Shown here: piece after piece, positions 1 to 16,038 of the stretch
How positions within the stretch are numbered: position 1 is the first letter of the stretch
How the letters are laid out: the number at the start of each line of letters is the position of its first letter
Origin: Pseudomonadota bacterium
Lineage (GTDB): Bacteria; Pseudomonadota; Alphaproteobacteria; Rhizobiales; Methylopilaceae
Assembly: GCA_023389135.1 (NCBI GenBank)
Contig: JAEWEX010000226.1
Span: 1 to 16,038, forward strand
Direction: 5' to 3'
DNA: 16,038 bases
The notes under the pieces: generated by a model
The model's database searches: none
What the model saw: the letters and a program-made list of their open reading frames with translations, nothing else
What the model was told of the DNA's origin: nothing
Made by a program: the position numbers and the translations under genes

Positions 1-969
1 CGCACGACCGCATGGGCGATCCCGGAGCGGGACGCGACGCCGGAGGCGGTGTTCTGGAACCGCCGCAAGCTGCTCGCAGCGGGGGTCGGCGCGGGCGCGC
101 TGATGCTGGCGGGCTGCGACGATGAGCCAGTGGCGCGCGCCAGCGCGGCGACGCCGGAGCCCGATCCGACAGCCGATCTCTACCCGGCAAAGCGCAACGA
201 GGCCTATGTCCTCGACCGGCCGCTGACGGAAGAGAAGTTCAATCTGGAATACAACAACTTCTATGAGTTCGGCTCCCACAAGGAGATCGCCGCGCAGGCC
301 CAGAACCTTCGCATCCGGCCCTGGACCGTCACCATCGACGGCATGGTGGAGGAGGAGAAGACGGTCGACATCGACCTGCTGATCCGCGCCTTCACGCTGG
401 AGGAGCGGCTGTATCGTCACCGCTGCGTCGAGGCGTGGTCCATGACTGTGCCATGGTCGGGCTTCGGACTGCGCGAGTTCGTCGCCTGGGCTCGACCGCT
501 GGGCTCGGCGAAGTATCTCAGGTTCGAGACCTTCAATGATGCCGACATGGCGTCCGGCCAGCGCCAGATCTGGTATCCGTGGCCCTATATCGAGGGGGTC
601 ACCATCGAGGAGGCCGGCAACGAACTCGGCTTCATGGTGACGGGCGCCTATGGCAAGCCGGTGGCGAGGCAGATGGGCGCGCCGCTGAGGCTCGCGCTGC
701 CGTGGAAATACGGGTTCAAGTCGATCAAGTCGATCGTCAGGGTGACCTTCACCGACGAGCGTCCGGTGAGCTTCTGGGAGGAGGTTCAGTCCTCCGAATA
801 CGGCTTCTGGGCCAACGTCAATCCGGAGGTGGCGCATCCGCGCTGGAGCCAGGCCAACGAGCGCGTGCTCGGCACCAGCGAAAGCCGCCCGACGCTGCTC
901 TACAACGGCTATGGCGAGCAGGTGGCCGGTCTCTACAAGGGCATGGAGGCCGAGAAGCTGTTCATATAG
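1..969 (+). CDS. msrP: MsrP, molybdopterin-dependent protein-methionine-sulfoxide reductase, catalytic subunit (5' end outside window)
   Basis: Periplasmic molybdoenzyme (YedY/MsrP family) that reduces methionine sulfoxide in envelope proteins, normally taking electrons from the membrane haem protein MsrQ. The reading frame is open to base 1 and already shows the family N-terminus (AIPERDATPEAVFWNRRKLL), so the GTG at 49 is probably internal and the true start lies left of the window. The Tat twin arginine is in NRRKLLAAG (58-84). It is followed by a hydrophobic stretch ending in LAGC-DD, a lipobox-like site (Cys codon 115-117). The molybdenum-ligating cysteine is in RCVEAWSMTVPW (Cys codon 424-426). 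The C-terminal NGYGEQVAGLYKGME is also family-typical. No msrQ follows; the next downstream element is on the opposite strand. Identity is confident; lipidation is inferred. Confidence 0.95.
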   Translation, partial: RTTAWAIPERDATPEAVFWNRRKLLAAGVGAGALMLAGCDDEPVARASAATPEPDPTADLYPAKRNEAYVLDRPLTEEKFNLEYNNFYEFGSHKEIAAQAQNLRIRPWTVTIDGMVEEEKTVDIDLLIRAFTLEERLYRHRCVEAWSMTVPWSGFGLREFVAWARPLGSAKYLRFETFNDADMASGQRQIWYPWPYIEGVTIEEAGNELGFMVTGAYGKPVARQMGAPLRLALPWKYGFKSIKSIVRVTFTDERPVSFWEEVQSSEYGFWANVNPEVAHPRWSQANERVLGTSESRPTLLYNGYGEQVAGLYKGMEAEKLFI

Positions 970-994
970 CAGCCGGCTGCAATCAGCCTGCGGA

Positions 995-1142
995 CAAGAA
1001 AAAAGCCGGGCCCACGAGGAGCCCGGCTTGAAGTTTTGGATCGCGCCAAGAGGGGGGAAGACGCGATCCCCATCCAGAGGGAACAGCTGATTGCCAAAGG
1101 GCCGAACCGGGAGGAGGTGGCCAGCCCCGATACAATCAGCGC
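995..1142 (-). ncRNA. Probable small RNA with an exposed anti-Shine-Dalgarno loop (CCUCCUCCC-motif type)
   Basis: Read on the minus strand, this gene-free stretch folds into three consecutive hairpins. Hairpin 1 has an outer 8-bp stem, GCUGAUUG (1140-1133) with CAAUCAGC (1093-1086). Its inner stem, GGGCUGGCC (1127-1119) with GGUUCGGCCC (1108-1099, one bulge), presents the loop ACCUCCUCCC. Hairpin 2 is a perfect 8-bp stem (1069-1062 with 1045-1038) whose 16-nt loop contains six consecutive Cs. Hairpin 3 is a 9-bp stem (1029-1021 with 1011-1003) followed by a U-rich tail, a classic Rho-independent terminator. CACCUCCU matches the 16S rRNA 3' tail. This layout resembles the alphaproteobacterial CCUCCUCCC (cuckoo/CcsR) small RNAs as I remember them; family membership is inferred. 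No convincing protein is encoded here. Confidence 0.72.
1003..1029 (-). terminator. Rho-independent terminator of the small RNA (possibly bidirectional)
   Basis: Perfect 9-bp stem AAGCCGGGC / GCCCGGCTT with a 9-nt loop. On the minus strand the stem runs into a T-rich tail (TTTTTTCTT, 1004-996, whose first two bases belong to the stem). On the plus strand only a short TTTT follows a few bases later. It should therefore end minus-strand transcripts (small RNA, or lysR read-through) well and msrP transcripts weakly. Confidence 0.85.
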
Positions 1143-1148
1143 CCGCCT

Positions 1149-1178
1149 GAAATGCCCCTTCCTTGTGCGACGCACAAG
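1149..1178 (-). promoter_or_regulatory. Putative RpoH-like promoter for the small RNA
   Basis: On the minus strand CTTG (1178-1175) is followed after 20 bases by CATTTC (1154-1149). This matches the layout of heat-shock sigma promoters (CTTG...CAT). Initiation would fall near 1140-1142, exactly where hairpin 1 of the small RNA starts. The match to the consensus is partial, and no competing RpoD-type box was found. Confidence 0.4.
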
Positions 1179-1179
1179 G
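1161..1179. promoter_or_regulatory. Perfect 8-bp inverted repeat (possible operator)
   Basis: CCTTGTGC-GAC-GCACAAGG is a perfect dyad with a 3-base centre. It overlaps the proposed -35 of the small RNA and lies between the lysR stop and the RNA. It is not followed by a T-run on either strand, so a protein-binding site is more likely than a terminator. The binding protein is unknown. Confidence 0.45.
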
Positions 1180-1203
1180 CGCGGCGGTGCATAGCAGCCA
1201 TGC

Positions 1204-1226
1204 GTTTGGCGAAAAACGCGCCAGAC
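1204..1226 (-). terminator. Weak hairpin just past the lysR stop codon
   Basis: GTTTGGCG and CGCCAGAC form an 8-position stem with one non-canonical pair around a 7-base loop. The U-run sits in the loop rather than after the stem, so this is not a canonical terminator. It may only stabilise the operon's 3' end. Confidence 0.25.
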
Positions 1227-1233
1227 TGCCCGT

Positions 1234-2130
1234 TCAGTAGGCCCAGCGCTGCGCTTTTTGCAGCAGGAAGTCGCGGAAGACCTGGATGCGCGCCACGTTC
1301 CGCAACTCCTCCGGATAGACGAAATAGGCGTCGAGCAGGGGCATCTCGGCGTCCGTCATGATCGGCACCAGCGGGCTGGACTGGCCGATCAGGTAGTCCG
1401 GAAGCACGGCGATCCCGACGCTGCGCTCGACGGCCATCTTCATGCCGACCACGCTGTTCATCACGAGTGCGGTGGTCCGCGGCGACCGCTCGGGCCGGCC
1501 TGCGGTCTCCAGCCAGTTCATGGTGGCGAGATAGGCCGGCACGTTGCCGCCGAACACCAGGATGCGGTGCTTCTCCAGATCGTCCACCGATTGCGGCTCG
1601 CCGAAGCGCTGCAGGTAGTCGGCCGAGGCGTAGACGTGGAAGTGGACCGTGAACAGCCGCCGCTGGATCAGGTCGGGCTGGGTCGGCTGTCGCAGGCGGA
1701 TGGCGACGTCGGCCGCCCGCATGGCAAGGTCCAGTTCGTCGTCGGACAGGATGAGCTGGATGTTGATGTCCGGGTAAAGGTCGAAGAACTCCCCGAGCCG
1801 CGGCGCCAGCCAGCCGGTGCCGAGCCCGACCGTGGTGGTCACCTTCAACTCGCCATGCGGCCGCTCGCGCGAATCCGTCAGCGCGATCCGGGTCGCTTCC
1901 AGCTTGGTGAAAACCTCCCGGGTGGTGCGGAACAGAAGCTCGCCCGGCTCGGTCAGGATCAGGCCGCGTGCGTGGCGGTGGAACAGCGGCACGCTGAGCT
2001 CATGCTCCAGCGCCGATACCTGGCGGCTGACGGCCGACTGCGACAGCCCGAGCTTGTCGCCGGCATGGGTGAAGCTGCCGGCCTCGGCGGCGACGTGGAA
2101 GATGCGGAGCTTGTCCCAGTCGAGCGGCAT
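1234..2130 (-). CDS. LysR-type transcriptional regulator, LsrB/VtlR-like
   Basis: A 298-residue LysR-family regulator. The N-terminal winged helix-turn-helix spans about residues 5-65 (DKLRIFHVAAEAGSFTHAGDKLGLSQSAVSRQVSALE, split by the usual turn). An effector-binding domain covers about 92-295. It starts 4 bases after the trxB stop, and its ribosome site GGGAG overlaps that stop, so it is almost certainly the last gene of the ELM1-trxB operon. In Sinorhizobium the oxidative-stress regulator LsrB, and in Brucella its orthologue VtlR, are of this type, and lsrB sits beside trxB; orthology is inferred from context and general sequence character. The protein contains no cysteine at all, although redox-active cysteines have been reported for S. 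meliloti LsrB (from memory). Family assignment is firm, orthologue name moderate. Confidence 0.92.
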   Translation of the reverse strand: MPLDWDKLRIFHVAAEAGSFTHAGDKLGLSQSAVSRQVSALEHELSVPLFHRHARGLILTEPGELLFRTTREVFTKLEATRIALTDSRERPHGELKVTTTVGLGTGWLAPRLGEFFDLYPDINIQLILSDDELDLAMRAADVAIRLRQPTQPDLIQRRLFTVHFHVYASADYLQRFGEPQSVDDLEKHRILVFGGNVPAYLATMNWLETAGRPERSPRTTALVMNSVVGMKMAVERSVGIAVLPDYLIGQSSPLVPIMTDAEMPLLDAYFVYPEELRNVARIQVFRDFLLQKAQRWAY

Positions 2131-2134
2131 CTCC

Positions 2135-4089
<1,955 letters not shown>

Positions 4090-4176
4090 GCGTCCCCGGG
4101 CCTCCGTCGCGCCGGCGATGTCTTGTGCCGGCCCGGCGCCGTGATACACAGCCCGCGGCCCTGCGGCGAGGGGCTC

Positions 4177-4674
4177 ATGCGGACCGAGGCACATATGCGC
4201 GACCGGCTGGACGCCATCGACTGGAAGATCCTCGAGGAACTCCAGGGCGACGGCCGTATGACCAATGTCGAGCTTGCGCGGCGCGTCGGCATCTCGGCGC
4301 CGCCATGCCTGCGGCGGGTGCGTGCGCTGGAGGAGGCGGGTCTGATCAGGGGTTACCGGGCGCTTCTGGACGCCCGCCGCCTGGGCATGGAGGTCTCCGC
4401 TTTCGCTTTCGTGCAACTGTCCAGCAACGCGGAGGCCGACTTGCTGGACTTCCGCAAGCGCATGGACGCAACGCCTACGGTGCGCGAGTGCTGGATGCTG
4501 TCCGGCGATGTCGACTTCCTGCTGAAATGCGCGGCGCCGGACCTGGCGAGCTTCCAGGCCTTCGTCATGGAGCTCACCGGCGCCCCGAAGGTCAAGACGG
4601 TCAAGACCGCCCTGACGCTGGCGCAGACCAAGGACGCGCCGTCGGTGCCATTGCCGCGTCAGGCCGTTGAATGA
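4177..4674 (+). CDS. lrp: Lrp/AsnC family transcriptional regulator
   Basis: A 165-residue feast/famine regulator. The N-terminal helix-turn-helix covers about residues 10-65 (DAIDWKILEELQGDGRMTNVELARRVGISAPPCLRRVRALEEAGLIRGY). The C-terminal RAM ligand-binding and oligomerisation domain covers about 72-150 (VRECWMLSGDVDFLLKCAAPDL). ATG at 4177 is chosen because GAGGGG lies three bases upstream; ATG at 4195 is possible. Much longer upstream reading frames are antisense to the ELM1 gene and rejected. It is divergent from the ELM1-trxB-lysR operon across 87 bases, so it may regulate that operon and itself. A Lrp gene beside trxB is, from memory, typical of Rhizobiales. Effector unknown, probably an amino acid. 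Confidence 0.93.
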   Translation: MRTEAHMRDRLDAIDWKILEELQGDGRMTNVELARRVGISAPPCLRRVRALEEAGLIRGYRALLDARRLGMEVSAFAFVQLSSNAEADLLDFRKRMDATPTVRECWMLSGDVDFLLKCAAPDLASFQAFVMELTGAPKVKTVKTALTLAQTKDAPSVPLPRQAVE

Positions 4675-4731
4675 AGCTGAGGTGGAGAATCCGTTTCCTC
4701 AACCAACCCGCAGTCCGGGAATCGCTTTTCG

Positions 4732-5481
4732 TCAGCGGACCAGCCTCGCGACCAGGTCGAGCCCGAGCAGGAAGAGGCACACCAGGAAAACCCGGCGGAA
4801 CACGTCCGGGCTGATGCGGTGGCGGATTCTCTGGCCTGTCCACATGCCGGCGAGGGCCGGCGCTACCGCCAGCGTCGACAGGACCACATTGTCCGCCCGG
4901 AACGCTCCGTGCCACGCCAGTCCCAGACCCAGCGCCACGGTCGCCACGACGAACGAGATGCCCAGCGCCTGGGTGAGGTCCTCCTTGTCGAGGCCGAGCG
5001 CCTGGAGATAGGGGACGGCCGGTATGACGAACACGCCGGTGCCGCCGGCGATGGCGCCGGAGGACAGGCCGATCAGCGGCGACAGCCACTTCTCGCGCGC
5101 TGCCGGCACCGAGAGCTGGCGGGCGATCAGCCCGTAGGCGGCATAGGCCATGAGTGCGATGCCCAGCGCCGCGGCGGTGATGCGGGTGTCGGCGCCGGCC
5201 AGCAGCGCCACGCCGCCCCAGATGCCGATGACGGCCGCCACCAGCATCGGCCACAGCCGGGCGAGCAGGGCGGCGAGCCGAGGCCCGGCCGCCAGCTGCC
5301 AGACATTGGTGACGAAGGCGGGCACGATCATGAGCGCCGCCGCAGCGATCGGCGTGACGATGGCGCTCAACACGCCGATCGCCACCGTCGGCAGCCCCAT
5401 GCCGGTGACGCCCTTGACGATGCCGGCGAGGAAGAAGGCGGCCGCGACCACGGCGGCGAACGACCAGGAAAGCTCAGGCAT
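4732..5481 (-). CDS. TauE/SafE (TSUP) family sulfite/anion exporter
   Basis: A 249-residue integral inner-membrane protein of roughly seven or eight hydrophobic segments. It shows the two characteristic repeats of the family: AAFFLAGIVKGVTGMGLPTVAIGVL near the N-terminus and SGAIAGGTGVFVIPAVPYLQALGLDKEDLTQALG in the second half. The family exports or imports sulfite, sulfoacetate or related small anions, but the substrate cannot be read from sequence. It converges on lrp with only 57 bases between the stops and stands alone on its strand; the next minus-strand gene upstream ends 83 bases before its start. The start ATG at 5481 fits the first membrane helix. Confidence 0.92.
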   Translation of the reverse strand: MPELSWSFAAVVAAAFFLAGIVKGVTGMGLPTVAIGVLSAIVTPIAAAALMIVPAFVTNVWQLAAGPRLAALLARLWPMLVAAVIGIWGGVALLAGADTRITAAALGIALMAYAAYGLIARQLSVPAAREKWLSPLIGLSSGAIAGGTGVFVIPAVPYLQALGLDKEDLTQALGISFVVATVALGLGLAWHGAFRADNVVLSTLAVAPALAGMWTGQRIRHRISPDVFRRVFLVCLFLLGLDLVARLVR

Positions 5482-5533
5482 GCGCCATTTGCCGACGGGC
5501 CGACCGGCCGCGCAATGCGCAAGTCATGAAGCT

Positions 5534-5556
5534 GGCCTTCGGGTTCCGGGAAGGCC
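5534..5556 (-). terminator. Hairpin downstream of the greA / fRMsr pair
   Basis: Perfect 7-bp stem GGCCTTC / GAAGGCC with a 9-base loop, 8 bases past the stop of the free methionine sulfoxide reductase gene. No U-run follows on the minus strand, so it is at best a weak or Rho-assisted terminator, or a 3'-end stabiliser. Confidence 0.4.
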
Positions 5557-5564
5557 GCCGGCGT

Positions 5565-6059
5565 TCAGCCGCTGAAGGTTCTCGTGAGAATGCGCTCCAG
5601 CCATTCTGCATCCACGGCGTCGAATGCGGCCGGCGTCGTGGCATCGACGTCGAACACCGCGATCAGGCGGCGATCCGGACCGAAGACCGGCACGACGATC
5701 TCGCTGGCGGAGCGGCTGTCGCACGCGATGTGGCCGGGAAAGGCGTGGACGTCCGGGACGATCACGGTCTTCCCGCCTGCGGCGGCCGCACCGCAGACGC
5801 CCCGGCCGAACGGTATGCGCAGGCAGCCGAGCGTGCCCTGGTAGGGCCCAACCACGAGTTCCCGCGGTTTCGTCGGGTCCACCCGGTAGAACCCCGCCCA
5901 GAAATAATGGTCGAACGCGTCGGCCAGCATGGAGGCAAGCGTCGCCATGCGGGCGGTCTCGTCGGGCTCGCCGTCCAGGACGGCCGCGATCTCGCCTGCG
6001 ACCTCGGCATAGCGGGCGGCCTTGTCGGCCGGGCGGTCGGTGCGGAGCGCGTAGGCCAT
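5565..6059 (-). CDS. msrC: Free methionine-(R)-sulfoxide reductase (GAF domain, fRMsr/MsrC)
   Basis: A 164-residue cytoplasmic single-GAF-domain enzyme that reduces free methionine-(R)-sulfoxide, usually with thioredoxin. Nearly the whole family signature is present: HYFWAGFYRV, ELVVGPYQGTLGCLRIPFGRGVCGAAAA, then VPDVHAFPGHIACDSRSASEIVVPVF and LIAVFDVD. The three cysteines expected for catalysis are Cys79, Cys89 and Cys113, with the same spacing as Cys84/94/118 of the E. coli enzyme. The ATG lies only 4 bases after the greA stop and has no strong ribosome site, which points to co-transcription and coupling with greA. This gene adds cytoplasmic free-Met repair to the periplasmic repair enzyme encoded at the left edge. 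Often annotated only as a GAF domain protein. Confidence 0.93.
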   Translation of the reverse strand: MAYALRTDRPADKAARYAEVAGEIAAVLDGEPDETARMATLASMLADAFDHYFWAGFYRVDPTKPRELVVGPYQGTLGCLRIPFGRGVCGAAAAGGKTVIVPDVHAFPGHIACDSRSASEIVVPVFGPDRRLIAVFDVDATTPAAFDAVDAEWLERILTRTFSG

Positions 6060-6063
6060 GGCG

Positions 6064-6537
6064 TCAGCCGAAGCGGATGCCCAGGACCTCGTAGCTCTTG
6101 CCGCCGCCGGGCGTCGACACCTCGACCTGGTCGCCCACCTTCTTGCCCACTAACGCCCGGGCGATGGGGGAGGTGATGGAGACCTTCCCGGACTTCACGT
6201 CCGCCTCGGCCTCGCCCACGATCTGGTAGGTGCGTTCCTCGTCGGTGTCCTCGTCCACGAGCTTGACCACCGCGCCGAAGGTGATGGTGTCGCCCTTGAG
6301 CTTGGTCAGGTCGATCACCTCCGCCAGCGCCAGCATGCCCTCGAGCTCCGCGATGCGGCCCTCATTGTGGCTCTGCTGCTCCTTGGCGGCGTGATACTCG
6401 GCATTCTCCGACAGGTCGCCATGGGAGCGCGCCTCCGCGATGGCCTGGATGATGCGAGGCCGTTCCTCCGACTGGCGCCGCCTCAACTCCACCTCGAGCG
6501 CGGCATAGCCGGCGCTGGTCATCGGGATCTTTTCCAT
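6064..6537 (-). CDS. greA: Transcription elongation factor GreA
   Basis: A 157-residue protein (E. coli GreA has 158). It rescues backtracked RNA polymerase by stimulating transcript cleavage through the secondary channel. The N-terminal coiled coil (about 8-75) carries the acidic tip [15 protein letters not shown], containing the catalytic Asp and Glu. The C-terminal FKBP-like domain includes [20 protein letters not shown] and ends in [12 protein letters not shown] at 6537 ([15 protein letters not shown]) is the family start, with a GAGAG ribosome site about 6 bases upstream; the frame continues upstream but the extra residues look random. It lies downstream of carB across a 103-base gap with a hairpin, and is followed after 4 bases by the free methionine sulfoxide reductase gene. 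Confidence 0.97.
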
Positions 6538-6568
6538 CGTCGCTCTCTCAAAAACGCAAGAAACCACA

Positions 6569-6597
6569 GGCTTCGGGTCCAAGGGAGGCCCGAAGCC
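6569..6597 (-). terminator. Hairpin between carB and greA
   Basis: Perfect 9-bp stem GGCTTCGGG / CCCGAAGCC with an 11-base loop, 43 bases after the carB stop. On the minus strand it is followed by TGTGGTTTCTTGCGTTTTT, a broken T-rich tract. This fits a moderate terminator for carB with partial read-through into greA. Its minus-strand loop reads CCTCCCTTGGA. Confidence 0.6.
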
Positions 6598-6640
6598 GCG
6601 GTACGCTTCATCCCCCGGCACACCGGAGTGCGCCGACCGC

Positions 6641-9949
<3,309 letters not shown>

Positions 9950-9973
9950 GGGCTTCCGTCGTGGCGGTCGCAT

Positions 9974-10008
9974 CCCGCCCGGGCCGCGGTTCGCGCGGCC
10001 ACGGCGGG
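9974..10008 (-). promoter_or_regulatory. Stable hairpin in the carB leader
   Basis: A 6-bp outer stem (9974-9979 with 10003-10008), a 2x2 mismatch, and a 7-bp inner stem (9982-9988 with 9994-10000) closed by a 5-base loop. It begins 24 bases upstream of the carB start codon. No T-run follows. It could influence carB transcription or translation initiation; function is inferred from position only. Confidence 0.4.
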
Positions 10009-10044
10009 CAGGCGGCTGAAGTTGTGGCTAGGCGCGTCGTTTAC

Positions 10045-10132
10045 ACGGGGCGGGACGTTTGGGGAAGCCTTTCGGGGCGTTTGGCGCCGCGGCGGGTCCA
10101 TGACGATTGAACCTTGTGCCGTCCCGCCCCGT
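10045..10132. repeat. 13-bp perfect inverted repeat with 62-bp spacer
   Basis: ACGGGGCGGGACG at 10045-10057 is the exact reverse complement of 10120-10132. The arms could close a long stem in a leader RNA on either strand, or be paired protein-binding sites. The GC-rich composition raises the chance of coincidence. Confidence 0.55.
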
Positions 10133-10189
10133 CAAATCGCGGGGGAGAGCCGCGGGGGCTGCTCCCGATCATCCGGAAAGGGCAGGGCC

Positions 10190-11125
10190 ATGAAGCGTTT
10201 CGCACTGGGTGTGACGTTCGTGTTCGCCGGCATTGCAGGGGCGTGGGCGGCGGATGTGGGAGGCAGCGCTGACCATCCGCTGCTGCCCCGCTACCAGGGC
10301 TCGGAGATCGTGCTCCACGAGGTCGAGCAGTTCACCGACCATCAGTTGCGGATATCGCCGGACAGGACGGCGTCCATGGAGCTGGAGGGCAAGGTCACCC
10401 GCATCACTTACCGCGCGCCGCAGGAGCGCTCGGTGCTGGAAGTCATGCGCAACTACGAGGCCGCGCTGGAGGCCGCGGGCTTCTCGCTGCTGTTCTCATG
10501 CGCCCGCGGCCAGGCGTGCGGCGACATCCCCGCCACGATCGAAACCGGACCGCGCCAGCTCGCCATCTGGGGCGGCGACGACAACATGCGCTACATGGCG
10601 GCGCGCAGGCAGAGCCCCGATGGCGACGTCTATGCCTCCGTCTACTCGACCCGCAACCATTCGGGCGGTCCGAGCGCCGGCCGCAGCATGGTCCAGCTCG
10701 ACATCGTCGAGGTGAAGCCCATGGAGAGCCGCATGGCGGTGGTCGACGCCCGGGCCATGGGCAACGACCTCGCCGCGGAAGGCCGGGTCGCGATCTATGG
10801 CATCCTGTTCGACTTCGACCGGGACACGCCGAGGCCGGAGTCCGAGCCGCAGCTGCGCGAGATCGCGGCGCTGATGACCGCCGATCCCGGCCTGAGGGTG
10901 CTGATCGTCGGCCACACCGACGCGCGCGGCGCCATGGACTACAACCGCGACCTCTCCGGGCGCCGCGCCCGCGGCGTTGCGGCGGCGCTCTCCGCGCGCT
11001 TCGGCATCGATGCGGCTCGCCTCACCCCGGTCGGGGTGGGCATGGCCGCCCCGGTGGCGAGCAACCGCACCGAGGAGGGCCGCGCCCTCAACCGGCGGGT
11101 GGAACTGGTCGATCTCGGCGGATAG
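10190..11125 (+). CDS. OmpA family envelope protein with N-terminal DUF4892-like domain
   Basis: A 311-residue exported protein. The start ATG at 10190 gives a clear signal peptide (MKRFALGVTFVFAGIAGAWA, cleavage near Ala20/21), with an AGGGC-type ribosome site. A much longer open frame upstream is antisense to carB and rejected. Residues about 25-180 (DHPLLPRYQGSEIVLHE..., then RITYRAPQERSVLEVMRNYE) match my recollection of DUF4892. Residues 200-308 are an OmpA-like peptidoglycan-binding domain, with GHTD at 241-244 and the pattern N252-L255-S256-R259-A260-V263. It probably sits in the outer membrane or periplasm, bound non-covalently to murein. It is divergent from carB and followed 41 bases later by a short-chain dehydrogenase. 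Confidence 0.93.
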   Translation: MKRFALGVTFVFAGIAGAWAADVGGSADHPLLPRYQGSEIVLHEVEQFTDHQLRISPDRTASMELEGKVTRITYRAPQERSVLEVMRNYEAALEAAGFSLLFSCARGQACGDIPATIETGPRQLAIWGGDDNMRYMAARRQSPDGDVYASVYSTRNHSGGPSAGRSMVQLDIVEVKPMESRMAVVDARAMGNDLAAEGRVAIYGILFDFDRDTPRPESEPQLREIAALMTADPGLRVLIVGHTDARGAMDYNRDLSGRRARGVAAALSARFGIDAARLTPVGVGMAAPVASNRTEEGRALNRRVELVDLGG

Positions 11126-11154
11126 GGCGCGTGGCGGCGGCGGGAGGGATCGGC

Positions 11155-11160
11155 TAGCCT
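11155..11160 (+). promoter_or_regulatory. Possible -10 element (TAGCCT) for a leaderless SDR transcript
   Basis: TAGCCT lies six bases before the SDR start codon, while the nearest GGGAGGG purine stretch is too far upstream for a normal ribosome site. That spacing would put the transcription start at or next to the ATG. No good -35 box is visible, so this is a suggestion only. Confidence 0.3.
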
Positions 11161-11166
11161 CGCGCC

Positions 11167-12006
11167 ATGACCGACGCAGCCACGCCCGCCGCCACCGTGC
11201 CAGCGACCCCGGTGCCACGGGCTGCCGATCCGGGCCGCTGGACAGTGGTCACGGGCGCGTCGTCGGGCATCGGGGCGGCGCTCGCGCGCGCCTTCGCCGT
11301 CCAGGGCGACGGGCTGGTGCTGGTCGCCCGGCGCCGGGACCGTCTCGATGTGCTCGCGGCGGAGCTGGCCGTAACCCACGGCACGCCGGTTCGTATCTAT
11401 GCGTTCGATCTGGAAGATCCCGATGCGCCGCTGGCGCTGATGCGCGCCATCGAGGACGACGGCGTCGCGATCCACACGCTGATCAACAATGCGGGCTTCG
11501 GCCTGCGCGGGCGGTTTGCGTCGCTGCCCGCCGCGCGGCAGCTCGCCATGGTCCAGCTCAATGTGGCGGCGCTGACATCGCTGTGCCGGCACGTGATGCC
11601 GGGCCTGATCGCGCGCAAGGCAGGAGGCATCCTCAACGTCGCCTCGCTCGCCGCCTTCCAGGCAGGGCCGAACATGGCCGTCTACTATGCGTCCAAGGCC
11701 TATGTGCTGTCGCTGTCGGAGGCCTTGCACGAGGAGGCCAAGCCCCATGGCGTGACCGTCACCGCGCTGTGCCCGGGGCCGGTCGAGACCGAGTTCGCCG
11801 CGGTGGCGGATCTCGAGGGTTCGTCGCTGTTCCGCACCAATGTCATGACAGCGGCGGAGGTCGCGAAGTCGGGCCTCGCGGGCTACCGCGCCGGGCGGGC
11901 GATCGTGGTGCCGGGCGCCATGACCGCGTTTGCCCCGCTGGCCGCGCGGCTTCTGCCGCGTGCGCTGATGCGCCGGCTCGCAGGCAGGCTGCAGGCGGTG
12001 GAGTGA
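11167..12006 (+). CDS. Short-chain dehydrogenase/reductase (SDR family, classical type)
   Basis: A 279-residue NAD(P)-dependent oxidoreductase. The Rossmann nucleotide-binding motif TGASSGIG is at residues 29-36, NNAG at 107-110, the catalytic Ser at 160, and the YxxxK pair at Tyr173 and Lys177 (YYASK). CPGPVETEF after the active site is also typical. Classical SDRs are about 250 residues; the extra length is a roughly 22-residue Ala/Pro-rich N-terminus and a C-terminal tail (FAPLAARLLPRALMRRLAGRL) that could associate with the membrane, as in DltE/YqjQ-like SDRs. It follows the OmpA-family gene by 41 bases, possibly with its own promoter. Substrate cannot be inferred. Confidence 0.94.
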   Translation: MTDAATPAATVPATPVPRAADPGRWTVVTGASSGIGAALARAFAVQGDGLVLVARRRDRLDVLAAELAVTHGTPVRIYAFDLEDPDAPLALMRAIEDDGVAIHTLINNAGFGLRGRFASLPAARQLAMVQLNVAALTSLCRHVMPGLIARKAGGILNVASLAAFQAGPNMAVYYASKAYVLSLSEALHEEAKPHGVTVTALCPGPVETEFAAVADLEGSSLFRTNVMTAAEVAKSGLAGYRAGRAIVVPGAMTAFAPLAARLLPRALMRRLAGRLQAVE

Positions 12007-12032
12007 CCGCGCGGCGGCGGGACGAAAGCGGA

Positions 12033-12421
<389 letters not shown>

Positions 12422-12424
12422 GGA

Positions 12425-12453
12425 CATGTGCGCGGCCCCCGCCGCCGGGTCAA
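12425..12453 (-). promoter_or_regulatory. rnpB: Putative RpoD promoter of rnpB
   Basis: On the minus strand TTGACC (12453-12448) is followed after exactly 17 bases by CACATG (12430-12425), a few bases before the P1 helix. The -35 starts immediately after the stop of the upstream transglycosylase gene. The -35 is good, the -10 only fair. Confidence 0.55.
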
Positions 12454-12454
12454 G

Positions 12455-13189
12455 TCAGAAGGTGGCCGCCGCGGCGAGCCTGACCTTCTCGTGCTCCTCC
12501 GCTGCCGCCGCGTAGTCGATCGGCGGCGGAACCGGCGCCGTGGCCGTTGCAGGCTCGGGGTGTGCGACGCCGGCGATCAGCTGCCGGCTGGCCCATGGCA
12601 GCTTCTCCATCACAGCGAGGACCTTGTCGCAGTAGACGCGCCCGGTGCTGGTTGTGCGCTTGACGCCGTGGCCGCCATTGTATTTCGACACGGTGAAGCA
12701 CAGGTCGCCCTTGGCCTTCTTCCAGGCGCCGGCGAGGTAGCGGACGCCATATCGGATGTTGTTCTCGGGCCGGTAGAGCTCGGGGCGACGGCCCTCGAAG
12801 CCCACCATCTCCGCGGTCGGCTCCTTGATCTGCATCAGGCCGACCTCGCCGGCCGCGCCGGTGACGTGGGCGCGCCAGGTGCTTTCAACCATCACCACCG
12901 CCTTCGCCAGTTCCACCGGAACGCCTGCGGCGCGGGCCTCCATGGCGACCAGCGCGCGCAGGTGGCGGCTGGCGGCGTCGGGCAGCCCGCCGCGCGCTTC
13001 CCGTGCGAGGCGCGCGGCGCGGCTGGCCGCCTTCTTCTCCTCGCCCGACAGCGGAACAGGCTTCACCAGCGGTTCACGGATGAAGTAGGGCGTGGGTGAA
13101 AGGTCGTCCTCGGCGGACGCAATACCTGCCGCCGAGACGATGCCGGTCATGAGCGCGAGACCTGCCAGCGCGATGCGGGCGGTCCTCAT
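12455..13189 (-). CDS. Secreted lytic transglycosylase (SLT domain), copy 1
   Basis: A 244-residue exported muramidase-like enzyme that cleaves the MurNAc-GlcNAc bond with formation of anhydro-MurNAc. It has an N-terminal signal peptide (MRTARIALAGLALM... to about residue 26), and the SLT core is at about 78-195. The catalytic Glu is at 102 (VVMVESTW), followed by GLMQI (117-121), ENNIRYGVRYLAG, and SKYNGGHG. Cys164 and Cys187 flank the last motif, probably a disulfide. The C-terminal 45 residues are Ala/Pro-rich and unmatched in the two neighbours. Its ATG overlaps the stop of copy 2 (ATGA), so the two are one operon. A longer in-frame opening upstream is out of frame with copy 2 and rejected. 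Confidence 0.93.
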   Translation of the reverse strand: MRTARIALAGLALMTGIVSAAGIASAEDDLSPTPYFIREPLVKPVPLSGEEKKAASRAARLAREARGGLPDAASRHLRALVAMEARAAGVPVELAKAVVMVESTWRAHVTGAAGEVGLMQIKEPTAEMVGFEGRRPELYRPENNIRYGVRYLAGAWKKAKGDLCFTVSKYNGGHGVKRTTSTGRVYCDKVLAVMEKLPWASRQLIAGVAHPEPATATAPVPPPIDYAAAAEEHEKVRLAAAATF

Positions 13190-13830
13190 GACGCATTCTC
13201 CGCACCGCCGGCCGAGGCCGTGCGGGCGGCGCCCATCAGGCGCTTGACCTTGGCGCAATAGACGGCCCCCGCACGGGTGACGCCTCGAACGCCGTGGCCG
13301 CCCTGGTACTTGGACACCGTACCGCAGATGCTGCCGCCGGACTTGCGGTAGGCGCCTGCGAGATAGCGCATGCCGTATTCGATGTTGTTGGCAGGGCCGT
13401 AGAGCGCGGCGCGCGAGCCGGAAAAGCCCTCGCCACGGGCGGTCTGGTGCTTGATCTGCATCAGCCCGACCTCGCCGGCGCGGCCGGTCACACCTGGCCT
13501 CCAGCGGCTCTCGACGGTGACCACGGCGCGGGCCAGGGCAACGGGAACGCCGTGCTCGCGGGCAGTGGCCTCGACGAGGCGCTCCAGGTTGCCGGCAGGC
13601 GCTGCGGTCGTGGCCGCGTCGCGCGCCGCGGGCGCCGACCTTGAGCGAGCCTTGGAAGCGGCCGGCGCCTCGGTCCGCTCGACCCCGGCAGCGTCCTTGC
13701 CCATCACGGGCCGCGTCATGTTGGCGGGATAGCGCAGGTCGGCCGCCGCGGGGAGGGCGAGGCCGGTGATCAGGACGGCGCACAAGGCCGTCGCCACGCG
13801 TCGGCGACGCATGCTGGGCATTCGATGCAT
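13186..13830 (-). CDS. Secreted lytic transglycosylase (SLT domain), copy 2
   Basis: A 214-residue exported lytic transglycosylase. ATG at 13830 is chosen because AAGGAAG lies six bases upstream; an in-frame ATG at 13866 lacks this. The signal peptide (MHRMPSMRRRRVATALCAVLITGLALPAAA) is followed by a low-complexity Ala/Arg/Ser linker to about residue 80. The SLT core covers about 82-200. It holds the catalytic Glu107 (VVTVESRW), GLMQI (122-126), ANNIEYGMRYLAG and SKYQGGHG, with Cys169 and Cys192 in the same relation as in copies 1 and 3. Translationally coupled to copy 1 downstream. The 153 bases upstream, to copy 3, hold no other gene. Confidence 0.93.
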   Translation of the reverse strand: MHRMPSMRRRRVATALCAVLITGLALPAAADLRYPANMTRPVMGKDAAGVERTEAPAASKARSRSAPAARDAATTAAPAGNLERLVEATAREHGVPVALARAVVTVESRWRPGVTGRAGEVGLMQIKHQTARGEGFSGSRAALYGPANNIEYGMRYLAGAYRKSGGSICGTVSKYQGGHGVRGVTRAGAVYCAKVKRLMGAARTASAGGAENAS

Positions 13831-13983
13831 TCGTGCTTCCTTCAGGTTTTCCGCCCGCCGGCCCACAGCCCGCGGACGATAGGCGCATCGTCAACGCTCA
13901 CCGTGACGAGAACGTTCGCCCGGTGTGTCGTCGCGCCGTTGTGGGTTGGCGGGCAGGTCCCGCGTCAGGCTATAGCTGCGCCG

Positions 13984-14481
13984 CTATCTGGCGGTCGCAA
14001 GCCGGGTGCCACTGCGCCCCTTCAATTGCGCGATGTGGCGGCGTACCTTGCCGCAATAGGCCGAGCCCGAGCGGGTCACACGGCGCACGCCGTGGCCGCC
14101 CTGGTACTTGGACACGGCAAGGCAGTAGTCGCCCTTGGCCTGGCGCAGCGCCTGGCCAAGATATTTCATGCCGAACCGGAGGTTGGTGTCGGGGTCGTAG
14201 AGGCCCGAGGCGGAGCCGCGGTAGCCGATGCCTCGAGCGGTGCGGTGGCTGATCTGGGTGAGCCCGATGTAGCGTCCCGCGCCGGTCGCGCGTGGGCGGT
14301 AGCGGCTCTCGACCATGACGACCCCATGGGCCAGATCGAAGGGGACGCCGTTCGCGGCGGCGTGCTGGGCGACCTTGGCGCGCAGCGCGTCCGAGCCGGC
14401 CGCGTGGGCCGCTCCCATGGACGCGACCAAGGCGATCGCGGCGGCCACGGGGACCGCACGGAGCATCAGAGATCGGAGCAT
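13984..14481 (-). CDS. Secreted lytic transglycosylase (SLT domain), copy 3
   Basis: A 165-residue exported lytic transglycosylase, the most compact of the three. The signal peptide (MLRSLMLRAVPVAAAIALVASMGAAHA) is followed almost directly by the SLT core (about 32-150). The catalytic Glu is at 58 (VVMVESRY), the next motif is GLTQI instead of GLMQI (73-77), then TNLRFGMKYLG and SKYQGGHG. Cys120 and Cys143 are 23 residues apart, as in the other two copies. ATG at 14481 is preceded by AGGTG at a slightly long spacing; GTG twelve bases upstream is an alternative start. The long frame running further upstream is antisense or out of frame with the amidase and rejected. It probably has its own promoter in the 155 bases upstream. 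Confidence 0.92.
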   Translation of the reverse strand: MLRSLMLRAVPVAAAIALVASMGAAHAAGSDALRAKVAQHAAANGVPFDLAHGVVMVESRYRPRATGAGRYIGLTQISHRTARGIGYRGSASGLYDPDTNLRFGMKYLGQALRQAKGDYCLAVSKYQGGHGVRRVTRSGSAYCGKVRRHIAQLKGRSGTRLATAR

Positions 14482-14587
14482 TCGGGGGTTCACCTGTTCT
14501 TCAGGTTGGATACTGCCGAGCCTAATGGGTGCCCAATCGGGCCCTCCGGCGGCTCGACTTCGTCGGGCAAGGGAAGATTTCGTGACC

Positions 14588-14616
14588 TTTCTGTGGCACA
14601 TTCCCCAGATGGTCAA
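14588..14616 (-). promoter_or_regulatory. Possible RpoD promoter upstream of lytic transglycosylase copy 3
   Basis: Minus strand TTGACC (14616-14611), a 17-base spacer, then CAGAAA (14593-14588). The -35 is identical to that proposed for rnpB; the -10 matches only three consensus positions. The implied leader is about 100 bases long. Confidence 0.3.
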
Positions 14617-14636
14617 CCCCTTGCGCCCTACCAGAG

Positions 14637-15476
14637 CTAGCGGGTGTTCCGTTCCGGCAGGCTCGCCAGAAGGTCGCGCAGCGTCGTCACCGTCGATGCG
14701 TCGGCGACGCCGTCGACCCGCTCGGGTCGGAAGTGGCGCTGGAACGCGGCGACCGTCGCATGCGTGGCCGGATCGTAACGGCCGGTGATCTCCACACCGT
14801 ATCCATATAGCGCAAGCATGGACTGGAGCGCCTCCACAGGCTCCCCCTCGTCGCCCTCGGCCAGGAAGCGACCGCCGGAGATGGGGGCAGGCTCGACCCA
14901 GTGCCCGATGCCGGCGGCGGCGAGGCGGCGCCAGGGAAAGAGTTCGCCCGGATCCTGCTTGCGGCGCGGCGCGATGTCGGAATGGGCGAGGACGCGCTCG
15001 GCAAAGATGCCGCGACGGCGGCAGATATCCGCCGACAGCGCGATCACCGCCTCGACCTGGGCCGCAGGGAAAGGCCGGTAGCCGCAGTCGTGGCCGGGAT
15101 TGACGACCTCGATGCCGACGGAGCGGCTGTTGATGTCGGTCTCGTCCTCCCACACGCCGAGACCCGCGTGCCAGGCGCGGCGGTCCTCGGCCACCATCTG
15201 CACGATGCGGCCGTCCTCGTGGACCAGATAGTGGCACGAAACCCTGGATGCGGCATCGGTGAGCCTTGCCAGCGCGGCCTCAGCCGAGGCCATGCCGGTA
15301 TAGTGCAGCAGCAGGATATCGATGCCGGCGCCGTCTGCGCGCGCGTCATGGCACGGAGAGGGCAGCGTCTCGTGGGGCAGAGAGGTGTCGGCGGCGGGCA
15401 ACATGGCCGCGAGGTAGGGCGAAAGCGGTGCGGTGCGCAAGGGGTGCCCGAGCGATAGAGTTTGCGCCGCGACCAC
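14637..15476 (-). CDS. N-acetylmuramoyl-L-alanine amidase (Amidase_2) with C-terminal peptidoglycan-binding domain
   Basis: A 279-residue zinc amidase of the AmpD/AmiD family, which cuts the bond between MurNAc and the L-Ala of the stem peptide. Zinc ligands appear to be His58 (LLLHYT), His165 (LAHSDIAP) and Asp175 (RRKQDPG). Glu123 (GIEVVN) and Lys173 are placed like the catalytic pair of AmpD. Residues about 205-272 form a PG_binding_1 repeat (EGEPVEALQSMLALYGYG... ATVAAFQRHFRP). The GTG at 15476 has only a poor ribosome site; ATG at 15404 (residue 25) would still keep the whole domain. No convincing signal peptide is visible, so the site of action is uncertain. It lies upstream of the three transglycosylase genes on the same strand. 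Confidence 0.93.
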   Translation of the reverse strand: MVAAQTLSLGHPLRTAPLSPYLAAMLPAADTSLPHETLPSPCHDARADGAGIDILLLHYTGMASAEAALARLTDAASRVSCHYLVHEDGRIVQMVAEDRRAWHAGLGVWEDETDINSRSVGIEVVNPGHDCGYRPFPAAQVEAVIALSADICRRRGIFAERVLAHSDIAPRRKQDPGELFPWRRLAAAGIGHWVEPAPISGGRFLAEGDEGEPVEALQSMLALYGYGVEITGRYDPATHATVAAFQRHFRPERVDGVADASTVTTLRDLLASLPERNTR

Positions 15477-15657
15477 CTCGCTCAGCGATTGTTTCGCCTA
15501 TGCCTGCGCCAGGCGCCGCGGCGTGGGGTTGCTCTACAAGCGGCACGACTTCGCACATGCCGACCTTGCGGGCTGACAGACATCTCGCACCGTGATGGCT
15601 TTCACCACCAAGTCTCGCTTGCCGTTTGTGCCCGCCGGGCCGCAGGGTAAGCGCCTG
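15477..15657. other. Divergent intergenic region between amidase and EamA transporter
   Basis: No credible gene or RNA recognised in these 181 bases. There is a small hairpin, GCCTG-CGC-CAGGC, near 15501-15513 and an alternative ATG for the transporter at 15595. Promoters for both divergent genes presumably lie here but no convincing boxes were found. Confidence 0.5.
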
Positions 15658-16038
15658 ATGTCGCGTGCCTCTCCCGAAACCCTCGGTCTCGTCTTGGGCG
15701 TGTTCGCCGTCGTGCTGTTCGGCGCAACGCTGCCGTTCACGCGGGTCGCGGTGATGGAGATCGATCCTTGGTTCGTGACGACGGGCCGCGCGGCGCTCGC
15801 GGGCAGTGTCGCCGGCGCCGTGCTGCTGGTCCTGCGCCGTCCGTTGCCGCCCCGCGAACTGTTGCTGCCGCTCGCCGTGATCGCGGTGACGCTGACCTTC
15901 GGCTTCTCGGCCCTGATGGCGCTTGCCATGCAGACTGCGTCCTCGGCGCATGGCGGGGTGGTGATCGGCGTGCTGCCGCTCGCGACCGGGGTGGCGGGCG
16001 CATTTGTGGCGGGCGAGCGCCCGTCCGCGGCCTTCTGG
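15658..16038 (+). CDS. EamA/DMT family transporter (3' end outside window)
   Basis: The first 127 residues of an inner-membrane drug/metabolite-type transporter. Four hydrophobic segments are visible: LGLVLGVFAVVLFGATLPFT, the AALAGSVAGAVLLVL helix, LLPLAVIAVTLTFGFSALMALAMQ, and GGVVIGVLPLATGVAGAFVAGE. The WFVTTGRAALAG stretch after the first helix and the SAHGGVVIGVLPLATGVAGAFVAGE block near position 115 are typical of EamA repeats. ATG at 15658 puts the start just before the first helix, with AGGG about 10 bases upstream; an in-frame ATG at 15595 would add 21 residues. Substrate unknown. Divergent from the amidase gene and cut by the window edge. Confidence 0.88.
   Translation, partial: MSRASPETLGLVLGVFAVVLFGATLPFTRVAVMEIDPWFVTTGRAALAGSVAGAVLLVLRRPLPPRELLLPLAVIAVTLTFGFSALMALAMQTASSAHGGVVIGVLPLATGVAGAFVAGERPSAAFW

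Follow-up and report, generated by a model that had tools for sequence, protein, structure and literature searches.

A putative LsrB-activated, AbcR-type small RNA gene behind trxB-lsrB in a genome of the Methylopilaceae

Introduction

The motif CACCUCCU belongs to the 3' tail of 16S rRNA. Among the small RNAs (sRNAs) that carry an anti-Shine-Dalgarno (anti-SD) sequence, the CcsR/cuckoo RNAs (RF02791 and relatives) have CCUCCUCCC in a hairpin loop, lie downstream of a DUF1127/CcaF1-type gene and occur in tandem copies.

AbcR1 and AbcR2 (ar15, RF02345), described in Sinorhizobium, Agrobacterium and Brucella, are the closest known counterparts of the element reported here; citations by PMC number refer to excerpts of the articles concerned. 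In A. tumefaciens, abcR1 and abcR2 sit behind trxB-vtlR, and the consensus of the LsrB/VtlR box is GCAT-N3-TG-N3-T (PMC7486931). In S. meliloti the abcR genes adjoin lsrB; their RNAs are 114–121 nt long and contain two anti-SD motifs, aSD1 (CUCCUCCC) and aSD2 (UUCCCCUC), each of which represses its targets in reporter assays (PMC8844928). The Brucella AbcRs carry motif M1, CUCCCA, in hairpin 1 and motif M2, GUUCCC, between hairpins 1 and 2, and AbcR is said there to occur 'throughout the Alphaproteobacteria' (PMC5461406). The ar15 RNAs have been called a family of Rhizobiaceae and Brucellaceae, in which they are always multicopy (PMC3712013). In the excerpts of the GLASSgo paper AbcR is not named, and in those of the Azospirillum paper it appears in the reference list only. 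A further anti-SD RNA of S. meliloti, NfeR1 (ar14, RF02344), is likewise activated by LsrB (PMC10746234).

Results

We analyzed a stretch of 16,038 nt, hereafter the window (GCA_023389135.1, contig JAEWEX010000226.1, positions 1 to 16,038), in which a first-pass annotation had pointed out an anti-SD-displaying sRNA on the minus strand and had compared it with the CcsR/cuckoo RNAs. The candidate gene (about 145 nt, 998–1142, minus strand), whose 5' end is set by promoter spacing and whose 3' end is set by the terminator, lies between msrP and a LysR-type regulator gene. The convergent msrP (1–969, plus strand) has its start cut off and reaches 401.6 bits with NF003767, above the cut-off. The LysR-type gene (1234–2130, minus strand), which carries LysR domains and is the presumed activator of the sRNA, is preceded by trxB for thioredoxin reductase (2135–3097, minus strand; TIGR01292, 403.7 bits, above the cut-off). 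Since trxB, the LysR-type gene and the element all lie on the minus strand, the window has the gene order described behind trxB-lsrB/vtlR. The LysR-type protein is 58–70% identical to the 80 proteins of the Hyphomicrobiales loci that we fetched, which include those of Rhizobium, Xanthobacter and Chelatococcus, and in the LsrB tree it groups with proteins of Agaricicola, Methylopila and Hansschlegelia (13 rows, support 99/98). None of the 25 listed NCBIfam models reached its cut-off on this protein, and the name lsrB/vtlR therefore rests on synteny and similarity. Of the 80 loci, 74 have trxB upstream of lsrB according to tblastn, and 31 have a convergent msrP downstream. A close LsrB relative (E <= 1e-100) is present in 356 of 397 genomes of the order.

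The description of the gap as gene-free held, in that it contains no convincing genes; an 80-codon frame with a GTG start (933–1175, minus strand) spans all three hairpins described below. An open frame is thus present for a small protein, yet it crosses the terminator as well as the hairpins, and members of the family often differ in length by a number of bases that is not divisible by three, with their stems retained. We consider a protein product scarcely credible.

Elsewhere in the window, a bacterial class A RNase P RNA (12033–12417, minus strand; 285.5 bits) was the only RNA that Rfam reported at its own cut-offs. A small murein-hydrolase cluster (12455–14502 and 14637–15476, minus strand) encodes three adjacent SLT transglycosylase-domain proteins, then one Amidase_2 plus peptidoglycan-binding protein.

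The 148 nt of the minus strand between 1142 and 995 had a predicted fold energy of -70.5 kcal/mol, as compared with -50.8 ± 3.8 kcal/mol in dinucleotide shuffles (z -5.13; none of 200 shuffles was as good), and the three consecutive hairpins noted in the first pass were recovered. In the first of these, SL1 (1086–1140), the predicted fold and the arm-swap test described below indicate an outer stem, an inner stem and an anti-SD loop. The inner stem presents ACCUCCUCCC (1118–1109, loop and flank), as had been noticed, at the position of the AbcR motif M1/aSD1; the outer stem, first given as 8 bp, has 9 pairs in the fold (1140–1132 with 1094–1086). Within SL1, UCCUCCC is unpaired with probability 1.0 in the predicted ensemble. 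SL2 (1038–1069) has a predicted stem of 10 pairs (1069–1060 with 1047–1038) and the loop UUCCCCCCUCUU; its run of six C residues (1057–1052) is unpaired across the predicted ensemble, in agreement with the earlier description, although the loop measures 12 nt in the minimum-energy fold and not 16 nt. A third anti-SD patch may lie in this C-rich loop. The last hairpin is a Rho-independent terminator (999–1029), supported by a terminator scan and by the alignment of relatives; the hairpin-like part spans 1029–1003 and is followed by a T tail; one such hairpin was found, against an expectation of 0.5 from shuffled versions of the region. The number of pairs drawn decides whether its loop begins with UCCUC, as first stated.

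Between SL1 and SL2 we identified a conserved linker, UGUUCCCUCUGGA (1073–1085), which was absent from the first-pass annotation. It includes M2, GUUCCC, at 1084–1079 (aSD2 of AbcR), and is the most conserved stretch of the family, with UGUUCCCCUCUGGA in most aligned loci. In the predicted fold of the window M2 is partly paired (unpaired probability 0.04–0.44).

Examination of the regions behind lsrB in the 80 loci revealed a recurrent pattern consisting of a box GCAT-N3-TG-N3-T, a CTCC motif, TGTTCCCCTCTGGA or a variant of it, and two hairpins. Under a loose rule that restricted the box-to-CTCC distance to 75–95 nt, and thereby bounded the reported distances of 76–94 nt, 54 of the 80 loci had a box-CTCC pair, some of them clearly chance pairs within genes, and 26 had none. 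A covariance model, R1, was built from 22 aligned lsrB-downstream sRNAs of other Hyphomicrobiales, with the window excluded. The training loci fall outside Rhizobiaceae and Phyllobacteriaceae in the LsrB tree, and include a metagenome-assembled genome (L012) titled Rhizobium. R1 matched the window element over its full length (1145–996, 78.9 bits, E 1.6e-17), as its single minus-strand match; a second row of 13.8 bits was the back of the terminator.

Over the 80 loci (672,899 nt), R1 gave 84 rows at E <= 0.1. On the lsrB strand there were 72, with 69 within 1 kb behind lsrB and three at 1.2–2.2 kb; among the 12 on the opposite strand, ten were partial and covered the back of the terminator, whereas two were full-length (L030, L075). 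A match within 1 kb behind lsrB was present in 60 of the 80 loci: all 22 used for training and 38 of the remaining 58. Among the 20 loci lacking a match in that interval are loci of Methylobacterium, where the lsrB-msrP gap is very short (14–59 nt in five loci), and L043, where the contig stops 121 nt after lsrB. R1 also finds Rhizobiaceae AbcR copies outside its training set, at 26–48 bits. Among the loci of the nearest kin, 14 of 28 were matched at E <= 0.01; Methylopila-like loci scored 47–51 bits and two Hansschlegelia loci had no R1 match. The Agaricicola locus scored 30.9 bits and keeps a perfect box and the linker, with no CCTCC within 500 nt behind lsrB.

In a sample of the order, with 16 candidates scored per genome, R1 matched at least 78 of 199 genomes (E <= 1e-3). 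Among the 52 of these 78 genomes with both R1 and lsrB positions listed, the best match was on the lsrB strand and no more than 1.5 kb behind the gene in 36; in the other 16 it was located elsewhere. In a class-wide sample 12 of 289 genomes were matched (E <= 1e-3); apart from the seed genome, none scored above 37 bits.

The run of C residues in the SL2 region varies in length among members. It is six in the window and in two Tepidamorphus loci, 4–5 in six Xanthobacteraceae-type loci (L010, L012, L013, L021, L034, L050) and four in L009 and two Aureimonas loci; L008 and L041 stand with these six Xanthobacteraceae-type loci in the list of SL2-region runs of 4–6. It is three or fewer in L006, L022, L048 and L060 of the deep branch and in the examined rhizobial, Phyllobacteriaceae and Stappiaceae members. 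Four Aureimonas loci (L052, L061, L076, L078) have GTTTCCTCCCAAGGG in place of GTTCCCCTCTGGA in the linker, a changed second anti-SD motif. Chelatococcus sambhunathii (L007) has tandem lsrB-linked RNAs (5028–5161 and 5276–5410), each with a box of its own; in a lineage far from Rhizobium, this pair is possibly an independent duplication.

Upstream of the element, the window contains GCATGGCTGCTAT (1191–1203, minus strand), a perfect match to the LsrB/VtlR consensus that the first-pass annotation had not mentioned. By chance alone 1.29 perfect boxes would be expected on both strands of the whole window, and two were found. Across the 80 loci, counted on the lsrB strand only, 44 perfect boxes fell in the 55,192 nt that lie within 700 nt behind lsrB and 36 in the other 617,707 nt. 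The box is followed by a predicted -35 element, TTGTGC (1172–1177), 26 nt past the box start, and a predicted -10 element, CATTTC (1149–1154), 17 nt past the -35. Promoter positions were compared in 41 rows (38 loci, some of them close relatives) that had a perfect box and an R1 match within 1 kb, the TTG and CAT columns having played no part in their choice. TTG stood at +26 in 32 of the 41 rows and within 1 nt of it in 39, and CAT stood at +49 in 25; at other positions the mean was 0.57 rows for TTG (maximum 3) and 0.88 for CAT (maximum 10). The window shows the spacing of its relatives, exactly +26 for TTG and +49 for CAT, which would place the RNA start near 1142. A plain sigma-70 consensus scan found no promoter. 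A perfect 8-bp dyad, CCTTGTGC-GTC-GCACAAGG (1161–1179, minus strand), lies over the -35 element and is perhaps a second LsrB half-site; TTG...GCAC words near the -35 of some relatives resemble it.

This promoter arrangement also bears on whether the trxB-lsrB operon merely ends in this element as its 3' UTR and terminator, or shares it with msrP as a two-way terminator, so that it would have no function of its own. Its orientation in the operon direction, about 90 nt behind lsrB, and a terminal hairpin that could serve both strands would suit such a role. Against it stand the conserved box, -35 and -10 elements at fixed spacing between lsrB and the RNA, the conservation of SL1, the linker and SL2 besides the terminator, and the finding of a matching element 1.2–2.2 kb from lsrB in three of the 80 loci. 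We regard it as very improbable.

A sequence-only MAFFT alignment did not register the SL1 stems, and RNAalifold on that alignment kept only three doubtful linker pairs and ten terminator pairs; six of the ten terminator pairs were changed on both sides in the alignment of relatives. Because a plain alignment cannot register the stems, we used an arm-swap test in which arms were paired with their own or with foreign partners, the SL1 arms being divided at the anti-SD motif rather than on the basis of a fold. Five candidate rows without a T run had been removed earlier. From the remaining 56 sequences (55 and the window), L035_34 and L055_43 were left out since they had no linker match, and the resulting 54 were reduced to 30 by removing similar sequences; three more, without a terminator word, were removed for SL2. 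For SL1, own arms averaged -25.1 kcal/mol and foreign arms -15.7 kcal/mol in the 30 dissimilar members, with none of 20000 permutations (which ignore kinship) as good; in 20 of these 30 the own partner was the best one. For SL2, the values were -11.6 and -6.8 kcal/mol in 27 members, again with none of 20000 permutations as good; the own partner was best in only 5 of 27, though the mean beat every permutation. The first-pass annotation had named, as an outcome that would refute it, stems lacking conservation beside conserved flanking genes. This outcome was not observed: on average the stem arms pair best with their own partners, and R1 matches lie within 1 kb at 60 of the 80 lsrB loci.

The covariance-model search that had also been proposed placed the element in no Rfam sRNA family at its cut-off; the match to relatives came from R1. 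At lax limits, the best Rfam match was ar14, over the full ar14 length (41.1 bits, cut-off 58.8, E 2e-6), followed by suhB (30.9 bits, cut-off 41), sX11 (27.8 bits) and CcsR1 (11.3 bits, cut-off 65.3). With the terminator removed, the best row had 16.2 bits, and ar15 had no row either. For ar15 no match was listed in the window at E <= 10, nor did it reach the Rfam cut-off; one weaker suhB-clan match was suppressed and ar15 belongs to that clan, so ar15 could only have scored below 30.9 bits. The suhB RNA MmgR (RF00519) resembles the element in having a C-rich stretch and a terminator, but its match covers SL2 and the terminator only, and this candidate was rejected.

The ar14 match over the whole length speaks for a cuckoo/CcsR or ar14 (NfeR1) RNA, that is, a unit of three CCUCCUCCC hairpins that is DUF1127-linked or stress-induced. 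In addition, NfeR1 shares with the element three hairpins and an anti-SD loop and is activated by LsrB in S. meliloti, and a few further RNAs of the slot behind lsrB give weak ar14 matches. However, the score is below the cut-off, and only one of the three window loops, that of SL1, has CCUCCUCCC, whereas NfeR1 has three identical CCUCCUCCC loops and other neighbours. The gene upstream of the element is lsrB-like, whereas about half of the inspected ar14 matches follow the end of a frame, read by eye, that we take to be DUF1127-like. In 20 fetched ar14 stretches R1 reached at most 21.4 bits, except for an ar15 copy in L113 at 56 bits. Among 28 inspected matches (27 ar14 and one ar15, in these 20 chosen stretches, where tandem arrays may hide a promoter), two had a perfect LsrB box in the 130 nt upstream, and six had a box with at most one mismatch. 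Over 50 genomes, ar14 matched 35 (E <= 1), 16 of them above the cut-off, and matched one of 14 controls, none above the cut-off. As for CcsR/cuckoo, the likeness is CCUCCUCCC in a hairpin loop; the CcsR1 score is far below its cut-off, and the window has neither a DUF1127/CcaF1-type gene upstream nor tandem copies. The first-pass idea of a divergent cuckoo member had built on the long outer stem and the poly-C loop of the second hairpin. The outer and inner stem, though, recur in SL1 of Rhizobium AbcR, the C-rich loop recurs in two Tepidamorphus and several Xanthobacteraceae-type loci, and the promoter, the neighbouring gene and the GUUCCC linker are AbcR-like. On model scores, loop motifs and neighbours, membership in CcsR/cuckoo or ar14 was rejected, and we consider it improbable.

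The link of the element to ar15 runs through other genomes. A search with ar15 of 49 whole genomes to which these loci belong gave 40 rows (E <= 1) in 29 genomes, with seven genomes above the cut-off; three of 14 control genomes had a row, none above the cut-off. Rows were placed by coordinate and strand only; the contig numbers of the two sources are not comparable. By this placement 26 of the 40 (24 genomes) lay on the lsrB strand within the 1-kb slot downstream of the gene, with three more within 2.5 kb. Among these 26 slot rows, 18 were below the 40-bit cut-off. Thus, the ar15 model weakly recognises the predicted slot RNAs of Stappiaceae, Kaistia, Chelatococcus, Microvirga and others. A second model, R2, made from 19 rhizobial and Phyllobacteriaceae AbcRs only and having a poor consensus fold, did not match the window at E <= 10, but matched 12 of 20 deep-branch loci at 13.5–35.2 bits (E <= 1). 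R1 scored 44.8 bits on L053 and 45.8 and 42.1 bits on L072, both of which are ar15 loci above the cut-off. Homology of the window element to AbcR proper would therefore run via intermediates, synteny and the promoter, with R1 finding both ends.

A comparison of the window element with AbcR1/AbcR2 revealed that they share the slot behind trxB-lsrB/vtlR, as in S. meliloti and A. tumefaciens, the LsrB/VtlR box, a similar length, an SL1 made up of an outer stem, an inner stem and an anti-SD loop, the GUUCCC linker, SL2 and the terminator; SL1 of Rhizobium AbcR (L053) folds with an outer and an inner stem as well. The window counterparts of aSD1 and aSD2 are CUCCUCCCG and GUUCCCUC. M2 is exact, whereas for M1 CUCCUCCC is present but the next base is G, giving CUCCCG and not CUCCCA. 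Further differences are the lack of a listed ar15 match, the C-rich SL2 loop, which is absent in the examined rhizobial AbcRs, and the length of about 145 nt compared with 114–121 nt (PMC8844928). In contrast to the multicopy ar15 of Rhizobiaceae and Brucellaceae, most genomes with an R1 match in the order sample have just one (68 of 78, with 16 candidates scored per genome).

Discussion

Based on sequence, predicted structure, conservation, synteny and promoter architecture, we consider it highly probable that the window element is an AbcR-type sRNA gene, putatively activated by LsrB, and the positional and structural counterpart of rhizobial abcR1/abcR2, in a member of the Hyphomicrobiales that is probably uncultured. 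As judged from its sequence, it is a divergent branch of the AbcR RNAs, because no Rfam family reaches its cut-off, the AbcR-only model misses it and the C-rich SL2 loop differs.

By analogy with AbcR, we infer transcription, control by LsrB, target repression and Hfq dependence. As a redox-responsive LysR regulator whose gene lies immediately upstream, LsrB would bind the predicted box at 1203–1191, and transcription would start near 1142 to give an RNA of roughly 145 nt. This RNA would expose UCCUCCC in SL1, GUUCCC(UCU) in the linker and probably CCCCCC in SL2, pair with the Shine-Dalgarno regions of many mRNAs and block their translation. The first-pass proposal of an sRNA that displays the anti-SD sequence and probably pairs with ribosome-binding sites is supported; by AbcR analogy the element very probably switches off many mRNAs by covering these sites. 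Its targets may be transporter and metabolic mRNAs, since those of the AbcRs in rhizobia are mostly ABC-transporter and metabolic mRNAs.

More speculatively, LsrB with an adjacent anti-SD sRNA could be a module ancestral to the Hyphomicrobiales, of which ar15 and the LsrB-activated ar14 RNAs are specialised descendants, and in which a deep-branch RNA had three C-rich patches. We hold this as a tentative idea, on balance doubtful. Deep-branch patches of this ribosome-site-like, C-rich kind are those seen in the window, in the SL1 loop, the linker and the SL2 loop. The ar14 model scores 31.5 bits on the slot member of Paramesorhizobium and 28.3 and 25.3 bits on those of Tepidamorphus. The best pointer to a common ancestor is Oricola nitratireducens (L055, 4993–5133), which has an ar14/NfeR1-like RNA that forms three CCTCCTCCC hairpins and is accompanied by a perfect LsrB box. 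This RNA occupies the lsrB slot, where other genomes have an AbcR-type RNA, and scores 49.4 bits with ar14, below the cut-off. The best objection is that most inspected ar14 matches have no box, and R1 does not exceed 21.4 bits on them. In Paramesorhizobium (L113), ar15 and ar14 RNAs (354–466 and 883–1002) lie about 0.4 kb apart on the same strand.

Rfam at its cut-offs reported two of 17 scanned element-bearing loci, and together with the seven of 49 genomes in which ar15 exceeded its cut-off this suggests that the RNA is likely unannotated in most such genomes. With a broader model, its targets could be tested comparatively. In plant symbionts, and in pathogens of plants and animals, AbcR RNAs act as pleiotropic regulators of nutrient uptake. 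In many non-rhizobial Hyphomicrobiales the RNA is tied to a redox neighbourhood, trxB-lsrB-(sRNA)-msrP, and the LsrB-sRNA module would therefore predate the symbiont and pathogen lineages.
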